Source of the DNA: Paenibacillus stellifer
GTDB lineage: Bacteria > Bacillota > Bacilli > Paenibacillales > Paenibacillaceae
Assembly: GCF_000758685.1 (NCBI RefSeq)
Contig: NZ_CP009286.1
Location: 3,812,501-3,876,500 of the forward strand
Length of the DNA stretch: 64,000 nucleotides
Reading direction: 5' to 3'
The position numbers were made by a program, and so were the translations under genes. The notes under the pieces are model-generated. The model was not told the origin of the DNA. It was given only the letters and a program-made list of their open reading frames with translations, and made no database searches. Below, one piece after another: positions 50,367 through 63,633 of this stretch. The first letter of the stretch is position 1, and each line of letters opens with the position of its first letter.

Positions 50367-51326
50367 TTATAGTGTCTTCAAGAATTGATAGATCTTGTCG
50401 TTCATGCCCGGAAGATCCTCATGTCCGAAGTCCGGGTAAATTTCAAGCGTGAGCGGTGCAGGCATTTTGTTAATGGCTGCAAACTGGGTGGACGGCGGAC
50501 AAATATTGTCCATCAGTCCGACGCCGATAAGCAGCTCCGCCTCAATGCGGGGAGCCAGATTCTGAATATCGATGTAGCCAAGCCGGGTGAAAATCTCATC
50601 CTCCCGTTTGTGCTGCGGATCGAAATTGCGGAAATACTCCCGAAGTTCGCTGTAGGCTCCCGCAGCCAGATCCATTTCCCATACCCGCTTATAATCGCTG
50701 AGGAAAGGATAGACAGGCGCCGCCTTCTTGATTCTCGGCTCAAGCGCGGTGCAGGCAATCGTCAGGGCTCCGCCCTGCGACCAGCCTGTAGCCCCGACCC
50801 GGTTCTCATCTACTTCGTCGAAGCTCATGACTATGGAAGCGAGCTGCGCGGTATCCAGGAAAATATCCCGCATCAGCAGGCGGTCAGCCCGGTCATCCAG
50901 ACCGCGGATGAATTGCCCGCTGAAGGTCGTGCCCTTCACGCCGCCGGTATCCTCCGACAAGCCGGCCTGCCCCCGTACATCGAGTGCGGCGACGGAGAAG
51001 CCGAGCGCCGCATACGGCAGCTTGCCCTGCCAATCCCCCGAGTTCCCCGAGTATCCGTGGAATTGGAGAACCGCTGGGTGCGGCTTGGGAGCATTCGACG
51101 GGCGGATATACTTCGCATGAACCCTCGCTCCGCGTACACCGGTGAAATAAAGGTCATAGCATTCGGCCAATGGGGCCTGGAATTCCGAAGGAATCAGCTC
51201 AACCCTCGGATCAGTCTGCCGCATTTCCTGCAACGCTGCCTCCCAGTAGGCGTCAAAATCATCTGGACACGGATTGCGCCCCCCGTAGCTCTTTAGTTCT
51301 TCCAAAGGCAAATCCAGAATTGGCAT
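50367..51326 (-). CDS. CE7 acetyl xylan esterase / cephalosporin-C deacetylase
   Basis: Removes acetyl groups from short xylo-oligosaccharides or related sugars in the cytoplasm. The 319-residue alpha/beta hydrolase has the CE7 motifs RGQ (DVRGQAGLSED), the nucleophile elbow GWSQGGALT and the end motif FGHEDLPG with the catalytic His. No signal peptide, as typical. It opens the polysaccharide region, downstream of the cohesin/SLH gene. Terminator follows. Confidence 0.94.
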   Translation of the reverse strand: MPILDLPLEELKSYGGRNPCPDDFDAYWEAALQEMRQTDPRVELIPSEFQAPLAECYDLYFTGVRGARVHAKYIRPSNAPKPHPAVLQFHGYSGNSGDWQGKLPYAALGFSVAALDVRGQAGLSEDTGGVKGTTFSGQFIRGLDDRADRLLMRDIFLDTAQLASIVMSFDEVDENRVGATGWSQGGALTIACTALEPRIKKAAPVYPFLSDYKRVWEMDLAAGAYSELREYFRNFDPQHKREDEIFTRLGYIDIQNLAPRIEAELLIGVGLMDNICPPSTQFAAINKMPAPLTLEIYPDFGHEDLPGMNDKIYQFLKTL

Positions 51327-51454: not shown

Positions 51455-53191
51455 TCAGCGTTCTGCCATTCGGAACAGCGCCTGCGCCGCTTCGGCCCGC
51501 GTAAGCGCCGCCTGTGGATCGAACTCGGAAGCGGTTCGCCCTTGAATAAGTCCCTGGGCATAAGCCGACCGTACGGCGGCGTCCGCCCATGCTGCGATCA
51601 TGTTCATATCCTTGAACGGGACCGCCGCGCCGGAGTCTGCCGGAGACGGAGCAGAACCGTTCAGATAAGATGCCGCCTTGGTGAGCATCACAGCCATTTC
51701 CTGGCGGGTAAGCGTACCGCCGGGATCGAACACGCCGCCGGATCGTCCATTAACGAGACCGGCTTCATACGCGGCAACCACGGCTCCTGCGTACCATGAG
51801 CCGGATTGCACATCCTTGAACGCAGTGGCGCCGGTATGCTCCGGCAGACGCAGCATGCGGACGAGCATGGCCGAGAACTCCGCGCGCGTCACCTTCCGGC
51901 CGGGCTCGAAGCGCTCTGCGCCGCTGCCGTCTGCAATTCCTCTTGCGGCGAGCGTCTGAATCGCTTCATGCGCCCAGTGAGCGGCTGACACATCCTTGAA
52001 CTCGCGCGTTACCTTCAGAACGGAGTATACGCTGAAGTGACGGATGGGGGCCGATACGAGGTCTCCCTCCCATTTCGCGCCCTGAAATTCCGTATTGCCG
52101 GTTTCGTCAATGTAATAGATACCCGTCAGGCTCCGGTCCGGGGAAGAATCGCCCTTTAACCGCAAGGTCAGCGGAGAGCCGAAGGTTTCGACCGGAGTGG
52201 CTGCTCCCTGTCCGTTCTTCACGCTGAGCGTAAATCCGAAGGTCTGCCCGGCAATCTTGTTAGAACCTGTAGTTCCAGTACCTGCCGCGCTTCCTGAAGA
52301 CAGAAGGGCCGAAGCTTCTTCCGGGGAATAAGGCTTCACCTTCAGCGATATATAGCTTCCGGAAGATGATAGACGCCCGGCCAGCGCTGAGGACACCGAT
52401 GACGGAATATCGAGCGAGAAGGTCTGTCCGGATATCGTGACCACATGTCCGGATAATAGACCCATAACCTCGTTCGGGATGATGATTTCCAGAGCGTCTG
52501 CCGGGAAGGGCACTGTCGCTGTGGACGATCCCGCGCCGCCTTCCACCATCTCCGGTGTAATAATGACTTGCGTCCCGCCCGCTGCCGGCGAAGCCGCGCC
52601 GCTCTGCGAGGATGAGGATGAGCCTGTGCCAGTGTCACTGCCTGAACTGCCTGAACCGCCTGAACCGCCTGTACCTGTGCCGCTTCCCGCGTCCTGATTT
52701 GAGCTGATCATAATGGAAGCATCAGCCGTCTGCTCCAGCTTGACGCTCTTCAGCTTGCTGTCAATTAGCGTTATTCCGGACAGCTTCACAAGCGCCGGAC
52801 CGGAGCCTGCCGCCACGAAGGTGACGGTCAGGAGCCCATGCGAGCCGTCCGTTCCGGCCGTCTGATCGCCTAGCTTCGTGAAGGCAAAGGCCAGCTTGCC
52901 GTCCGCCATGCTGACCGGCAGTCCGTAACCGGTGGACTCCAGGTCGTAGACTGCGCTTTTGTATGTCAGCTTCTGCGGATCATAGGTCAGCGTCAGCTCG
53001 TAGGCATACAGATCCGCCAAGCTGTCTCCCTTCACCGTGACGCTGACCGAACCGCCCGGCTGAGCCGTGCCGGGCGCCTCAAGCGACAGGGCCGGGGCCG
53101 GGGCGGCGCTGGCCGCCTCCGAAACCGGAATCAGCAGCATTACCGCCGCAAGCAGGATGGACATGAAGCGGAGGAGCCTGTTGTTTCTCAC
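51455..53191 (-). CDS. cohesin-domain surface protein with three SLH domains
   Basis: A 578-residue secreted protein. Signal peptide 1-29. A cohesin-like domain covers about 35-160 (GSVSVTVKGDSLADLYAYELTLTYDPQKL cut: LYAYELTLTYDPQKLTYKSA; GLLTVTFVAAGSGPALVKLSGI). A Gly/Ser/Thr linker follows, then an unassigned middle (about 205-400), and three SLH domains at the end (FKDVSAAHWAHEAIQ, FKDVQSGSWYAGAVV, FKDMNMIAAWADAAV), which hold the protein on secondary cell-wall polymers. It lies 27 bases after the GH53 gene, whose product ends in a dockerin-like domain. An anchoring scaffold is the natural reading. Confidence 0.88.
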   Translation of the reverse strand: MRNNRLLRFMSILLAAVMLLIPVSEAASAAPAPALSLEAPGTAQPGGSVSVTVKGDSLADLYAYELTLTYDPQKLTYKSAVYDLESTGYGLPVSMADGKLAFAFTKLGDQTAGTDGSHGLLTVTFVAAGSGPALVKLSGITLIDSKLKSVKLEQTADASIMISSNQDAGSGTGTGGSGGSGSSGSDTGTGSSSSSQSGAASPAAGGTQVIITPEMVEGGAGSSTATVPFPADALEIIIPNEVMGLLSGHVVTISGQTFSLDIPSSVSSALAGRLSSSGSYISLKVKPYSPEEASALLSSGSAAGTGTTGSNKIAGQTFGFTLSVKNGQGAATPVETFGSPLTLRLKGDSSPDRSLTGIYYIDETGNTEFQGAKWEGDLVSAPIRHFSVYSVLKVTREFKDVSAAHWAHEAIQTLAARGIADGSGAERFEPGRKVTRAEFSAMLVRMLRLPEHTGATAFKDVQSGSWYAGAVVAAYEAGLVNGRSGGVFDPGGTLTRQEMAVMLTKAASYLNGSAPSPADSGAAVPFKDMNMIAAWADAAVRSAYAQGLIQGRTASEFDPQAALTRAEAAQALFRMAER

Positions 53192-53218
53192 CTTGTGTTC
53201 CCCTCTCTGCGATCCGCC

Positions 53219-55876
53219 TTAGAATTTGCCCGGAATCTTCTTGGCTGTTGCCGCAAGGTCCGCGATATTGATGATATTATCCTTATTGGCATCCAGCGGC
53301 TTATACAGGTACCAGTCACTGTCCCCAGAGGTTTTGCCATAGCCTTTGGATACGCTGGCCAAATCCTTGATCGTTACCGGAACGCCGAGCGTTTCGAGCG
53401 TATAAGCGGAATCCAGATAAGTCTGCACCGCCGCCGTCAGCGCCGAAGTCGCGCTGTTCACATCGTTTTGCGATGCTTCCGCATTGTTATACACCTGCTT
53501 CGCTGCCGCTATAGCCCCCTGGAATGCATTGCGGCTCTCGGTTCCATATCCGCCAAGGAAAGCGCCTGTCTTGGTGGCATTGTACTTCTCCTCGGCCGAG
53601 TTGATGGCCGTGAGCAGCGCGGCCTTGTCTGCCACGGCCGCTACCGTAATGGATGCTGAAGCTCCGGCGGATGCCGTAATATCCTCGCCGTCCGAGACCG
53701 ACACGTTGACGGCCGTTACCGTTGCCGCTCCGCTGGTGGCGCCATCCTTCACTTTAAACCGGAGATCCAGCAGCGACGGATTTCCGGATACGGTTCCGGC
53801 CGTCGAAGCCAGAACGAGATAGACCGAGCTGCTGTCATCATTGGCGGTCTGCTGGACAACCTCCAGTCCGGATACGAGAGAATTCGCTCCCAGGAATTCG
53901 AGGCGGGAAGGATCGAACCTGAGCGTCATTTCCTCTGTAAGAAACGGCTTCTCCAGATTGCTCAGTCCGAAGGTCAGGCTGAACTCGTCTCCCGGCGCCT
54001 TTGTGACGTCTCCGCCTGTCAGGGACGCCGATGGCTGCGAAGCCTTAATAAGCTCAAAGTCGTCAAAATATCCCCATACCTGAGCCGGCGCTTCAACATC
54101 AAATCCGACGGTAATCTGGCCGTTTGTCACATGAATGTTCTCTACCGTGTACTGCTTCCACACATTCCAGCCTGTATTGACGGCATCACTTCCCAGCGCG
54201 TCTCCGCCGAAGCCGTCCGCGAACAATCTCAGCTTCGTTTCGCCGCCTCCGCCCGAGGACCAGGCGCGAAGTGTATATACGCCGTTCTCAAGACCAGTGA
54301 TGGTCTGAGATACTTTGTAAGCATAATCCGAGGCATACCAATAGTTAAAAGCGCTGCTGCCGGTATGGGCGTTCGCCGCATTCTTTTCCACTTTTCCCGC
54401 AGCGGTGCCGGTTACCGTCCAGTTCGTCAGTCCATCTTCAAAGCCAGGGTTCAGTATGACATTCTGATTGGCAAGCACCTTAATGTCGATGGAGGCTTCT
54501 TCATCCAGACCGCTCACTTTCCCTTTGACGGTGAACGTTCCGGGCGTATTCAGACTGTCCGCCGGAATGCTGTCCCAGACGACTGGCGCAGATGTAATCG
54601 AACCGTCGTTGTACAGGACATCCGCCGTCTGGGGAAGCTCCGGCTGTACTCCTTTGACAATCGTGATTCCGGCGGAAGGATATACCTTGATTGGAGACGT
54701 ATCCAGACTTCCGGGCACGTATTGGAAAGCGTCAAGCGAATCCAGCGCATTGCCCTCAAAATCGAACATCGCCTGATTCTCCCAGCCGTTCACGTCGCCC
54801 GTCTTCCAACCTACTCCGGAGAGCCAGGCCGGTTCCCAGTAAAATACGCCGAGTCCCTTCCCGTCCGTTACATGCGCCACCGTGTTCATCACCGCTTCGG
54901 TTACCAGCTTCTGGTTCGCCACGGATGCCGTGAAGCCGGCAGTATCGGTCTCTTTTTGACCGGCGATATTGCCCCCTGCGTTATCCGCATCGTCCAGGGT
55001 AAAAGGATATGCCGTTTCGGCAACAACGACTTCTTTGCCATAGCGGGTGGCCATATCGTCCATGTTCGTCTTCAATTGCTGCAGAGTGCCGTGCCAATAC
55101 GGATAGTACGACATGCCGATCACATCATAATCGAGATTGTTGGCTTTGGCTTTATCAAAAAAGCTCCGGAACTTCGCGTTGTTGCCGCCCTCGGCCAGAT
55201 GGAGCATAATCTTGACGCTGTGCCCGTCCGGGGTCGTGTCCCGCACCGCCTGGATGCCTTCATTCAACAGCGCCGCGAGATTGGTAAAATTGCCGACAGC
55301 CCCATCCGGAAGAAGGATGCCGCTGTTAATTTCATTACCGACTTGAACCATATCCGGGTAAGCGCCGACCTGATCCAGCTCCGTCAGCACCTCACTCGTA
55401 TATGTATACACGGCTGTCTTCAGCGATTCAAAGTCCAGATTGGCCCATGCGGCCGGTTTGACCTGCTTGCCCGGATCTGCCCAGAAGTCCGAATAGTGAA
55501 AATCGACCAGCAGCTTGAAGCCGGCCGCTTTGATCCGGGGCGCGAGTTCGAGCAGCTTCTCCTTGTTGTTGAAGCCATCCGACTCGGTCGGATCGTTCCA
55601 TACCCGCAGCCGTACGTAATTTACTCCATGCTCTTTAAGAATGGCGAGCAGATCCTTCTCCTGTCCGTTCTCATAATACTTGATGCCTTTGGCTTCCAAA
55701 GCCTGAAGTGTGGAAATATCCACTCCCTTAATAAACGTGCCGGGATCGGACAATGCCGATGCTGCAGCCGCTTCGTTCTGCGGAAAGCTCATCCCCAATC
55801 CAGTAAGCGCTATCATAAAGATCAAAGCCATAATGCCCAGTTTGCGAAGCCTGATGCTGATCCAATCCGATCTCAT
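53219..55876 (-). CDS. modular GH53 endo-1,4-beta-galactanase with cohesin and dockerin-like modules
   Basis: A secreted 885-residue enzyme cutting arabinogalactan/galactan side chains of pectin. Signal peptide about 1-38; GH53 barrel about 45-390 with the acid/base Glu in VQVGNEINSG and the nucleophile Glu in VVVAETAYPF. Then a bacterial Ig-like Big_4 domain (about 400-470), a CBM61-like galactan-binding module (about 475-610, NPGFEDGLTNWTVTG ... GYFDDFELI), a cohesin (about 615-740), a FIVAR helical module (about 750-820) and a dockerin-like end (KDLASVSKGYGKTSGD and LDANKDNIINIADLAA; the calcium loop is clear only in the second repeat). First gene of a two-gene unit with the cohesin/SLH protein. 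Confidence 0.93.
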   Translation of the reverse strand: MRSDWISIRLRKLGIMALIFMIALTGLGMSFPQNEAAAASALSDPGTFIKGVDISTLQALEAKGIKYYENGQEKDLLAILKEHGVNYVRLRVWNDPTESDGFNNKEKLLELAPRIKAAGFKLLVDFHYSDFWADPGKQVKPAAWANLDFESLKTAVYTYTSEVLTELDQVGAYPDMVQVGNEINSGILLPDGAVGNFTNLAALLNEGIQAVRDTTPDGHSVKIMLHLAEGGNNAKFRSFFDKAKANNLDYDVIGMSYYPYWHGTLQQLKTNMDDMATRYGKEVVVAETAYPFTLDDADNAGGNIAGQKETDTAGFTASVANQKLVTEAVMNTVAHVTDGKGLGVFYWEPAWLSGVGWKTGDVNGWENQAMFDFEGNALDSLDAFQYVPGSLDTSPIKVYPSAGITIVKGVQPELPQTADVLYNDGSITSAPVVWDSIPADSLNTPGTFTVKGKVSGLDEEASIDIKVLANQNVILNPGFEDGLTNWTVTGTAAGKVEKNAANAHTGSSAFNYWYASDYAYKVSQTITGLENGVYTLRAWSSGGGGETKLRLFADGFGGDALGSDAVNTGWNVWKQYTVENIHVTNGQITVGFDVEAPAQVWGYFDDFELIKASQPSASLTGGDVTKAPGDEFSLTFGLSNLEKPFLTEEMTLRFDPSRLEFLGANSLVSGLEVVQQTANDDSSSVYLVLASTAGTVSGNPSLLDLRFKVKDGATSGAATVTAVNVSVSDGEDITASAGASASITVAAVADKAALLTAINSAEEKYNATKTGAFLGGYGTESRNAFQGAIAAAKQVYNNAEASQNDVNSATSALTAAVQTYLDSAYTLETLGVPVTIKDLASVSKGYGKTSGDSDWYLYKPLDANKDNIINIADLAATAKKIPGKF

Positions 55877-58002: not shown

Positions 58003-58953
58003 ATGATCCTGCACCTGGCAGCCCCGCCGCTTCCCTTCTATATCGCCAGCGGAACCCATCAGTTCCCGCCGGGCCACCGGCATCTGAACCGTCAGCATAT
58101 CCACGTATTCGATCTGCTGTACGTTCGCAGCGGATGCCTGTATATGGGCGAAGAAGAACGCCGGTATGAGGTCCGGGAAGGCCAGGCGCTGATCCTCCTG
58201 CCGGACCGCCATCATTTCGGCTCCAGAGATTGTACGGAATCGACCCTCTATGACTGGCTTCACTTCTCGACATCCGGTCCGTGGAGCGTCAGCGGGACGG
58301 GCGGTCCTGAGTCCAGACATTCGGAGGCCGTACATTCGGAGACCTGGCCTCAGGGCTCCTGGCTTCAGGAAGCCGGAGAGCCGGTACACGGGCAGCCTGG
58401 ACCCGGCGGCAAAGTCCATGTTCACCGTGAATTCGAAGCGAATCCGTTCCTTCTTCGCCTGCCCCAATATACCTCGCTTCCCCAGCCCGCCCGTATGGAA
58501 GAACTGCTGGACCAATTGACCCGGCTCGCGCCGGAGGCGCATCTAAGCGGAACCCCGCTTCGCCAGCAGATTCTGTTCCAGGAAATGCTCGGCATGCTAC
58601 AAGGCGCGTCTGAAGCCGGGCGCTTATCGCCCCAGACCCAGTGCGCCGAGCTTGCCGCCTCCTTTCTGAGAGGGCATTTCAGCGAGGAGATCACCGCAGC
58701 AAGGCTGGGAGAATGCCTTAATTTCCACCCGGTCTATATCGCCCGATGCATGAACAAGGCCTACGGCTGCTCCCCCATGGAGTACTTGCTGCGCTACCGG
58801 ATCGAGCAGAGCAAGCTTCTGCTGATGCAGACCGGATACTCCGTCGCCCGGATCGCCGAGGAGGTCGGCTTCAGGAGCGCCTCCTATTTCAGCGCCACCT
58901 TCTGCAGGCTCGAAGGCATCTCTCCGAGACAGTTCCGACGCCAGTTCTCATAA
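58003..58953 (+). CDS. AraC-family transcriptional regulator
   Basis: A 316-residue regulator. N-terminal cupin sensor (FPPGHRHLNRQHIHVFDLLYV; metal-less pattern) and C-terminal double helix-turn-helix (ITAARLGECLNFHPVYIARCMNKAYGCSPMEYLL and YSVARIAEEVGFRSASYFSATFCRLEGISPRQFRR, cited here as motifs LGECLNFHPVYIAR and IAEEVGFRSASYFS). AAGGAG precedes the ATG. Divergent from the MATE exporter and upstream of the arabinofuranosidase region; either could be the target. Confidence 0.9.
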   Translation: MILHLAAPPLPFYIASGTHQFPPGHRHLNRQHIHVFDLLYVRSGCLYMGEEERRYEVREGQALILLPDRHHFGSRDCTESTLYDWLHFSTSGPWSVSGTGGPESRHSEAVHSETWPQGSWLQEAGEPVHGQPGPGGKVHVHREFEANPFLLRLPQYTSLPQPARMEELLDQLTRLAPEAHLSGTPLRQQILFQEMLGMLQGASEAGRLSPQTQCAELAASFLRGHFSEEITAARLGECLNFHPVYIARCMNKAYGCSPMEYLLRYRIEQSKLLLMQTGYSVARIAEEVGFRSASYFSATFCRLEGISPRQFRRQFS

Positions 58954-59336: not shown

Positions 59337-60830
<1,494 letters not shown>

Positions 60831-62078: not shown

Positions 62079-63371
62079 TTAGAGAGCATTTACATTAACC
62101 GCTCCGTATTTACGCATGCGGATGCGGTAAATATGCGGCGTGCCGAAGGATTTCATGTAGGACGTGTATTCCTCGGTCGCGCTCTTTGGCAGCAGCGCCA
62201 TAATGACTCCGGCGAAGCCGCCGCCGTGAACACGGGTTGCGCCGGCGCCGATTTTCTTAATGAACAGCTCGGTCAGCACCAGGGAAATCGTTACCCCCTG
62301 CTCGCCCGGATCCGTGTTGGAGTAGCAGTTCTGCAGCCACTTCCAGGAGGAATTGCCCGATTCCGTCACGAGTCGGAGGAAATCCTCCGGACGGTCTTCC
62401 TCCAGCGCCAGGATCTGCTGGTCCACGCGGTTGTTCTCCTCGAAGAAGTGAAGGGCGCGAAGAACCGCACGGTCGCCGGCGCTTGCTCTAACCTCTTCCA
62501 ACCGTCCCAGCAGATCGTCCAGCGTCAGCTCGCCCAGAACCTGGGCTCCGAGTACGCGGGCCGCCGCTTTCATTTCCGTCGGAATGGAGGAATATTCTTC
62601 GCTGAGATCGGCATGGTTCGCGCCTGTCGGAACGATCAGCAGATCGTAATCCTTGTCGATGGCTTCAAAATCCACGCCCTTAATAACCGGATGGACGCTG
62701 TCTTTAAAATCAATCGTAATAAGACCGCCGTAGCCGCAGGCGATTTGGTCCAGCAGGCCCGACTGTTTGTCCCACTTATTGTTCTCGGCGTACTGGCCGA
62801 TTTTGGCGCGGATAACGATATCCATTTCGCCTTTGTTATAGAAATCATTCAGAATTTCGCAGATCAGCATTTCGAAGGAAGCGGAGGAGCTGACGCCCGC
62901 CGCGCTGATGACGTCGCTCGTGATGCAGACGCTGAATCCGCCGATGTTATAGCCGAATTTCTCGAACCCTTCCAGGATGCCCTCGACCAGCGTATAGGTG
63001 CCGGATTGCTCTCCAGCCTCGCCTCTACGGTCAAGGTCGATAACGAAGTCTGTGCCATAATCCAGACTCTTGACGCTGACTTTGCGGTCGCCTGTCTTCG
63101 CGGCAACGCCGACACAATCCATATTGATGCTGGTTGCGATAACCTTGCCCAGATTGTGGTCGGTATGATTGCCGCTGATTTCGCTGCGGCCCGGCGAGCT
63201 GAACAGATAGACATCGCCTTCCGCATAACGGCCCTCGTAGGCGTTTACAAGAGAAGCGTATCTGTCAGCCTGGCTCTTCAAAATTTCGGCGTTGTCTCCA
63301 TAGAGCTTGACCAGCTTCTCCTTGAAATCTTCACTTTGTATTAATTGAATCGTATCAGCGATTGACGGCAC
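62079..63371 (-). CDS. galK: galactokinase
   Basis: Phosphorylates galactose to galactose 1-phosphate, the first Leloir step. The 430-residue GHMP kinase has the galactokinase signature GRSEISGNHTDHN near 60, the phosphate loop AAGVSSSASFEM near 160, and the C-terminal GHMP motif GGGFAGVIMALL near 390. The start is GTG at 63371 (GGAGG 8 bases upstream); ATG at 63386 has no ribosome binding site. Longer N-terminus than typical GalK, as in several Paenibacillus galactokinases. galE and galT are not in the window. Confidence 0.92.
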   Translation of the reverse strand: MPSIADTIQLIQSEDFKEKLVKLYGDNAEILKSQADRYASLVNAYEGRYAEGDVYLFSSPGRSEISGNHTDHNLGKVIATSINMDCVGVAAKTGDRKVSVKSLDYGTDFVIDLDRRGEAGEQSGTYTLVEGILEGFEKFGYNIGGFSVCITSDVISAAGVSSSASFEMLICEILNDFYNKGEMDIVIRAKIGQYAENNKWDKQSGLLDQIACGYGGLITIDFKDSVHPVIKGVDFEAIDKDYDLLIVPTGANHADLSEEYSSIPTEMKAAARVLGAQVLGELTLDDLLGRLEEVRASAGDRAVLRALHFFEENNRVDQQILALEEDRPEDFLRLVTESGNSSWKWLQNCYSNTDPGEQGVTISLVLTELFIKKIGAGATRVHGGGFAGVIMALLPKSATEEYTSYMKSFGTPHIYRIRMRKYGAVNVNAL

Positions 63372-63633
63372 GTAGCATTCCTCCATACATGTTAATTCAG
63401 TATCTTAATGAACCGCTAGCTCAACCAAAGGATACCGCAAAAACGGGCTTTGGGCTATGGAGAAACGTTACTTTCTCATGGAATATTATGACCATTGGCT
63501 GGTGACGGAATCCCGGCAACCCGCATAGAACCTGGATTTCATCGAGATACCGTCCTTGTTATCCCACGTCAAATGTCGGATTTGGGTTCGGGCGGCATCG
63601 TTATCTTTTCCGCTCATTTCCGCTCAATAGAGA

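Follow-up and report, generated by a model that had tools for sequence, protein, structure and literature searches.

A galactanase and an adjacent cohesin–SLH protein as a probable surface-display pair in Paenibacillus stellifer

The Acetivibrio/Clostridium cellulosome has anchor proteins, such as SdbA, in which a cohesin is combined with SLH domains. A 2008 study by Adams is said to have described enzyme–enzyme complexes held together by cohesins and dockerins in Clostridium perfringens, with structures 2ozn, 2jh2, and 2vo8. In the part of a later account used here, one C. perfringens GH31 protein carries both a cohesin and a dockerin (PMC12997984). Within the genus Paenibacillus, the consulted sections on P. 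guangzhouensis list 35 cohesin proteins, 28 dockerin–cohesin adaptors that often include glycoside hydrolase (GH) domains, and five SLH anchors, and propose that “monovalent adaptors” dock on SLH-anchoring scaffoldins (PMC11557425). For Paenibacillus sp. JDR-2, the available excerpts describe a GH53/BIG4/2CBM4,9/3SLH protein (PMC4765114) and four SLH proteins but no dockerins (PMC2838879); the SLH class is there defined, as we read it, by SLH plus cohesin. The P. curdlanolyticus complex, as far as the excerpted source goes, is built around a protein without cohesins (PMC6823336). Here, we describe a pair of adjacent genes in Paenibacillus stellifer, the evidence that their products dock with one another, and how the pair compares with these systems.

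The gene pair and its surroundings

We refer to the whole stretch of DNA that was analyzed, 64,000 nucleotides in length, as the “window”. The original prediction placed a GH53–cohesin–dockerin gene 27 bases ahead of a cohesin–SLH gene, and the open reading frames (ORFs), Pfam matches, and our own profiles confirm this arrangement at the following positions.

53219..55876, minus strand: gene 1, GH53 endo-1,4-beta-galactanase with a C-terminal cohesin–FIVAR–dockerin part (885 aa, ATG start)
54725..55732, minus strand: GH53 catalytic domain (aa 49–384, Pfam E 3.5e-127)
54044..54472, minus strand: CBM-like module related to PDB 2xom (aa 469–611, E 7e-22)
53633..54034, minus strand: enzyme-side cohesin, clade E (aa 615–748)
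53417..53632, minus strand: FIVAR three-helix module (aa 749–820)
53222..53416, minus strand: divergent one-loop dockerin (aa 821–885, profiles A2 and A4)
53258..53293, minus strand: second, canonical calcium loop of the dockerin, DANKDNIINIAD (aa 862–873)
53192..53218, minus strand: 27-base spacer with the RBS-like AGAGAGGGG; genes 1 and 2 are in the same frame
51455..53191, minus strand: gene 2, cohesin–3xSLH cell-wall anchor (578 aa, GTG start)
52706..53095, minus strand: anchor-side cohesin, clade A (aa 33–162)
52004..52576, minus strand: domain common to related anchors (aa 206–396, alignment A3 and our own profile “anc”)
51464..52003, minus strand: three SLH domains (aa 397–576, E 9.4e-38, motifs TRAE, TRQE, and TRAE)

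Gene 1 begins with a signal-like start, followed by GH53, Big_4 (aa 405–456, Pfam), the stretch related to 2xom, which is presumably CBM-like, and then cohesin, FIVAR, and dockerin. The protein is probably secreted. Both GH53 acid motifs are found, GNEIN at 180 and AETAYP at 286, which we take to carry the catalytic acids, and the likely substrate is beta-1,4-galactan, i.e., pectin side chains. The enzyme cohesin exceeds the cut-off of the Pfam Cohesin family (aa 622–745, E 6.4e-10); the FIVAR match (aa 751–818) lies slightly below its Pfam cut-off (28.6 versus 29.2 bits), and residues 750–869 align with C. perfringens 2jnk_A/2ozn at E 0.0064.

In gene 2, a signal-like start precedes the cohesin (Pfam Cohesin aa 42–150, E 2.4e-10, above cut-off), a linker, the domain shared among anchors, which matches no Pfam family, and the three SLH domains. 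The two window cohesins score 39.8 and 41.2 bits, with a curated PF00963 cut-off of 24.1, and the nearest folds of both are C. perfringens cohesins. The pyruvyl transferase CsaB is linked to SLH binding, and the genome encodes a homolog (TIGR03609, 275.3 bits versus a cut-off of 213.1), although 4 of the 14 control genomes also yield a match above that cut-off.

The start codon of each gene is preceded by a G-rich stretch that resembles a ribosome-binding site. Since the gap is only 27 bases, contains the RBS-like AGAGAGGGG, and has no minus-strand terminator-like site listed by a pattern scan, the two genes are likely co-transcribed. Elsewhere in the window are an alpha-L-arabinofuranosidase C-terminal domain (59340-60830), a galactokinase-like GHMP kinase (62082-63386), an AXE1 acetyl esterase (50370-51326), and an AraC-type regulator (58003-58953); these neighbors fit arabinogalactan use.

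Searches of the genome (5.66 Mb in a single contig) with Pfam and with broader profiles found two cohesins, both in this gene pair and one per protein, and a single dockerin, that of gene 1; neither Pfam nor the broader profiles gave a multi-cohesin scaffoldin. The search for other dockerins that the original prediction proposed returned none. No match of the Pfam dockerin profile reached an E-value below 0.6; the one further match of the 66-residue tail (E 0.118) falls in an ORF, not itself scanned, that we take for a DNA methylase and is regarded as chance, as is the one further match of profile A4 (E 0.85). The likeness to a “small cellulosome” that had been drawn holds as a likeness but not as a description, since the genome searches revealed neither a protein with several cohesins nor a second dockerin. 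We reject a cellulosome for this locus: an SLH-anchored cohesin is present, whereas the same searches found no scaffoldin with several cohesins and no set of several dockerin enzymes. The genome also encodes a second GH53 protein (L264:2442-10634, C1 ~4.36 Mb) of 2730 aa. It has 12 Big_2 matches and carries its three SLH domains within the same polypeptide, which would keep the same activity on the wall covalently.

The dockerin, the cohesins, and pairing across the family

The window dockerin matches no Pfam family, including Dockerin_1 (PF00404). Type I dockerins have two F-hand loops. Here, loop 2, DANKDNIINIAD, retains the calcium-loop pattern G-D-x-N-x-D-G, while loop 1 (aa 827–838) has lost the first three ligands, i.e., the D, N, and D of that pattern. 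The doubt raised earlier over a degenerate first loop was sound, and the objection that the end domain might lack calcium loops applies to one loop of the two; yet the dockerin assignment stands. An iterated profile seeded with the window dockerin alone gathered 103 distinct copies of at least 50 residues from the fetched loci, and Dockerin_1 matches 92 of them (Pfam, E ≤ 0.01), which marks the window tail, by its sequence, as a real if divergent dockerin. Profile A4, built on the 103 copies with the window copy among its rows, recovers that copy at E 1.7e-21.

Of 108 dockerin copies, the 104 distinct ones were used for the loop counts (the Pfam scan used 103). A FIVAR module precedes 44 of them, and 20 of these 44 lack loop 1, as do none of the 60 without a preceding FIVAR; 7 of the 20 lack loop 2 as well. 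Because the loss of loop 1 is confined to dockerins after FIVAR, it looks like the mark of a structural subtype rather than random decay.

A survey of 295 Paenibacillaceae genomes found cohesins in 190 (E ≤ 0.001). The dockerin type defined by profile A2 (the window dockerin plus six relatives) occurs in 113 (E ≤ 0.01), and a cohesin is present in 110 of these 113 versus 80 of the 182 others. We then considered 33 anchors, namely the matches listed for the window anchor that reach its cohesin part, leaving out the window's own; they were selected by likeness to that anchor and not by neighbor. Among the matches listed, 31 of the 33 have a same-strand cohesin–dockerin gene at −59 to 132 bases, with 28 of the 31 anchors positioned downstream of it, as in the window. 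Close relatives are included, so the anchor and locus counts are not independent of one another; what they show is a rule. Two-gene pairing is a family-wide rule in the Paenibacillaceae, and the window pair is no oddity. As for the two exceptions, L167 has no cohesin–dockerin gene in its stretch and that of L174 lies 4.9 kb off; the L174 cohesin is invisible to Pfam at E 0.001.

A second class of anchors comprises cohesin–SLH genes taken from the best Pfam cohesin matches in stretches without a cohesin–dockerin gene. All 17 (loci within L185–L213) are downstream of a same-strand gene with a dockerin only, at −68 to 276 bases, and carry one to three cohesins plus three SLH domains. A Pfam scan of eight of the dockerin-only partners shows that the majority have Ig-like domains or InlB repeats and are adhesin-like in character; none of the eight has a glycosidase catalytic family, although one shows a mannosidase jelly-roll match below cut-off. 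This suggests that the second class uses cohesin–dockerin pairing for non-enzymatic surface display.

The first class is rich in enzymes. There are 98 cohesin–dockerin ORFs of >400 aa, from which sets of 57 and 33 were scanned with Pfam, together with that of L100 alone from the 8 longest. The set of 57 includes 15 amidases, five GH53, four rhamnogalacturonan lyases, and three GH3; the further 33 include four each of GH101, GH20, and GH31, and three GH95. Some of these proteins, e.g., that of L100, show no catalytic family in Pfam. One layout, in which an N-terminal cohesin–dockerin part is joined to a C-terminal part of ~490–520 residues and followed by a cohesin–SLH anchor, recurs at L143–L150, L152, L154–L155, L157–L159, and L161. 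Pfam names the amidase PF01425 in L143 and L157, and the same layout makes an amidase probable in the remaining loci of this group. Genome G053 (L176–L177) has seven cohesin–dockerin ORFs, one with GH101, and a single cohesin–SLH ORF in a 34-kb stretch.

How strictly a dockerin is accompanied by a cohesin in its own chain depends on the profile used. In 30 of 30 loci chosen by the dockerin profile alone (the window being one), the dockerin's own ORF also encodes a cohesin, and all 108 copies found by the first profile share their ORF with a cohesin, some of those loci having been chosen by cohesin. For 30 loci chosen by Pfam Dockerin_1, by contrast, 15 have both domains in one ORF, 14 have a dockerin only, and one has neither arrangement; with a separate dockerin profile, 110 of the 128 dockerin ORFs in L097–L222 carry a cohesin, duplicates included. 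That a dockerin never occurs without a cohesin is therefore true solely of the copies collected by the window-seeded profile.

Cohesins were compared in a tree of 131 copies, thinned from 179 to <75% identity and built by a quick method from few columns. It contains 73 enzyme cohesins, 38 cohesins from first-class anchors, and 20 from anchors that neighbor dockerin-only genes. Each of the three classes forms one side of a branch, with support of 99 (starred) for the anchors and 89 (unstarred) for the others. By these clades, enzyme and anchor cohesins belong to different types, comparable to the cohesin types of the cellulosome. Within the window, the two cohesins have only a 37-residue BLAST stretch in common.

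Docking at the cell wall and alternative readings

We consider it probable that the two genes encode a non-covalent surface-display pair, in which the dockerin of gene 1 sits in the cohesin of gene 2 and the enzyme is thereby held on the wall. Gene 1 would be secreted, its C-terminal dockerin would bind the gene 2 cohesin, and the three SLH domains of gene 2 would bind the secondary cell-wall polymer. With both interactions in place, the galactanase would sit on the cell wall, able to cut beta-1,4-galactan. The enzyme's own cohesin would be left free for a further dockerin-bearing protein; since no other dockerin was found, a partner from the same genome could at most be another copy of the same enzyme.

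Structure prediction of the pair, also proposed originally, favors docking. An AlphaFold model of FIVAR–dockerin and the anchor cohesin fused into one chain, made from a 17-row alignment, has a pLDDT of 84.2 and a pTM of 0.75 despite 38 disordered linker residues. From the domain sizes, the rough expectation for undocked domains is a pTM of ~0.46, and 0.75 equates, again roughly, to a between-domain error of ~4 Å. The FIVAR–dockerin fold matches 2ozn_B, from an entry titled as a cohesin–dockerin complex. The model supports docking of the dockerin on the anchor cohesin, although the pTM of such a fused chain is an indirect measure.

Evolutionary distances were compared over 37 pairs, thinned from 51 such that anchors are at least 20% apart; the window pair was dropped in thinning, being close to L097. 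Dockerin distances correlate with those of the enzyme cohesin (r 0.74) and of the anchor cohesin (r 0.47); the values are 0.62 between the two cohesins and 0.42 between the anchor cohesin and its own SLH domains. The link between dockerin and anchor cohesin remains when SLH distances are held fixed (0.36, p 0.0005), but vanishes once the distances of the enzyme cohesin are controlled for (partial r 0.016, permutation p 0.38). These correlations give no support to docking on the anchor; a shared chain and a shared operon may confound them.

Anchoring is nonetheless well supported by the computed linkage and co-occurrence, by the fused-chain model, by the C. perfringens-like folds, and by the surface logic of SLH, GH53, and CsaB. 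Against it stand the lost ligands of loop 1, the blindness of Pfam to this dockerin, and the unhelpful distance correlations. The proposal that the enzyme docks on a wall-anchored cohesin thus stands by inference from family linkage, the fused-chain model, and the SLH domains with a CsaB homolog.

It is possible, if rather doubtful, that the dockerin binds both cohesins, such that enzymes link head to tail, each inserting its dockerin into the cohesin of the next, with the SLH anchor carrying the resulting chain; such chains would add to anchoring and not exclude it. In its favor, a cohesin lies beside the dockerin in all 30 dockerin-picked loci, and with both in one ORF throughout, the enzyme cohesin looks kept by selection. 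The seven cohesin–dockerin ORFs against one cohesin–SLH ORF in the 34 kb of G053 point the same way, as do the close tracking of enzyme-cohesin distances by the dockerin and the precedent of single cohesins and dockerins on complex-forming hydrolases in C. perfringens, as described in the consulted part of PMC12997984. However, the separate clades and the 37-residue overlap mean that one dockerin fitting both cohesins is not a given, and the genome's one dockerin would allow only a chain of a single enzyme. A broader version, which we put forward tentatively, is a scaffold-free, self-extending surface system in which each enzyme serves as both plug and socket and a single SLH anchor seeds polymer arrays, replacing the scaffoldin in Paenibacillaceae; the dockerin-only, Ig-rich, adhesin-like pairs would be a sister form for non-enzymatic display.

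Closure in cis, with the enzyme cohesin binding its own dockerin and masking it until the anchor competes, is unlikely. Cohesin precedes dockerin as its neighbor along the chain in the family architectures, and the natural cohesin–FIVAR–dockerin chain, which has no disordered linker, folds at a pLDDT of 93.5; but its pTM of 0.68, equating to a between-module error of ~7–8 Å, describes an arrangement less fixed than the complex with the anchor, and the FIVAR three-helix bundle stands between the two domains.

Least probable is a decayed relic that no longer docks, as the lost loop 1, the lack of a Pfam match, and the 7 of 20 loop-1-less dockerins also without loop 2 might suggest, because the GH53 orthologs seen retain loop 2 (P0001–P0005 in one alignment; the window, L097, L098, L151, and L156 in another), P. 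sinensis HN-1, NFR01, G291, and G033 share the whole pair with the window, and loop-1 loss occurs only after FIVAR (20/44 versus 0/60). The window pair is real and minimal, and it is probably a working docking pair.

Comparison with known systems

If docking on the anchor is correct, cohesin–dockerin pairing would serve a family of soil bacteria as a general means of surface display, beyond the anaerobic cellulose degraders. The P. stellifer genome would hold its minimal form, one plug protein and one anchor, which is easily tested, and adjacent cognate pairs would be ready-made parts for enzyme display.

The pair resembles the Acetivibrio/Clostridium cellulosome in having cohesin–dockerin parts and a cohesin anchored by SLH. 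It differs in having no multi-cohesin scaffoldin, in its single dockerin, in its predicted action on galactan and not cellulose, and in an enzyme with its own cohesin. With C. perfringens it shares single cohesins on hydrolases, the FIVAR–dockerin module, and the nearest PDB folds. In that species, all five cohesin proteins bear a GH domain according to the portion of the account used here (PMC12997984), whereas in the window a separate cohesin–SLH anchor adjoins the enzyme.

The GH53 protein of JDR-2, as excerpted, has the same catalytic family, the same Big_4/CBM order, and wall attachment by SLH. There the enzyme is attached covalently; in the window the design is divided over two proteins, and the pair looks like a split version of the JDR-2 design. 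As for the JDR-2 SLH proteins described without dockerins in the available excerpt, the profiles then in use may have missed dockerin partners that had diverged too far.

The original prediction regarded a two-gene version in Paenibacillus as notable. This was too strong, given cohesins in 190 of 295 genomes of the family and the published P. guangzhouensis system (PMC11557425, consulted in part). In the sections consulted, that system is similar in having one cohesin and one dockerin per protein and separate cohesin–SLH anchors, in the same genus. It differs in scale, with 28 adaptors and five anchors as against one of each, adjacent, in the P. stellifer genome. The enzyme families named in those sections are GH2, GH20, GH29, GH31, and GH43, with GH53 not among them (PMC11557425), and the account given there covers neither gene adjacency nor cohesin clades nor loop loss (PMC11557425, section 15). 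Among the matches listed in the open-licence literature, titles and the starts of abstracts mention no family-wide rule of cohesin–dockerin gene pairs and no GH53 enzyme of such a build. A system of this kind has thus already been sketched for one Paenibacillus; what is new here is the two-gene family rule, the three cohesin clades, the loop loss linked to FIVAR, and the minimal case.
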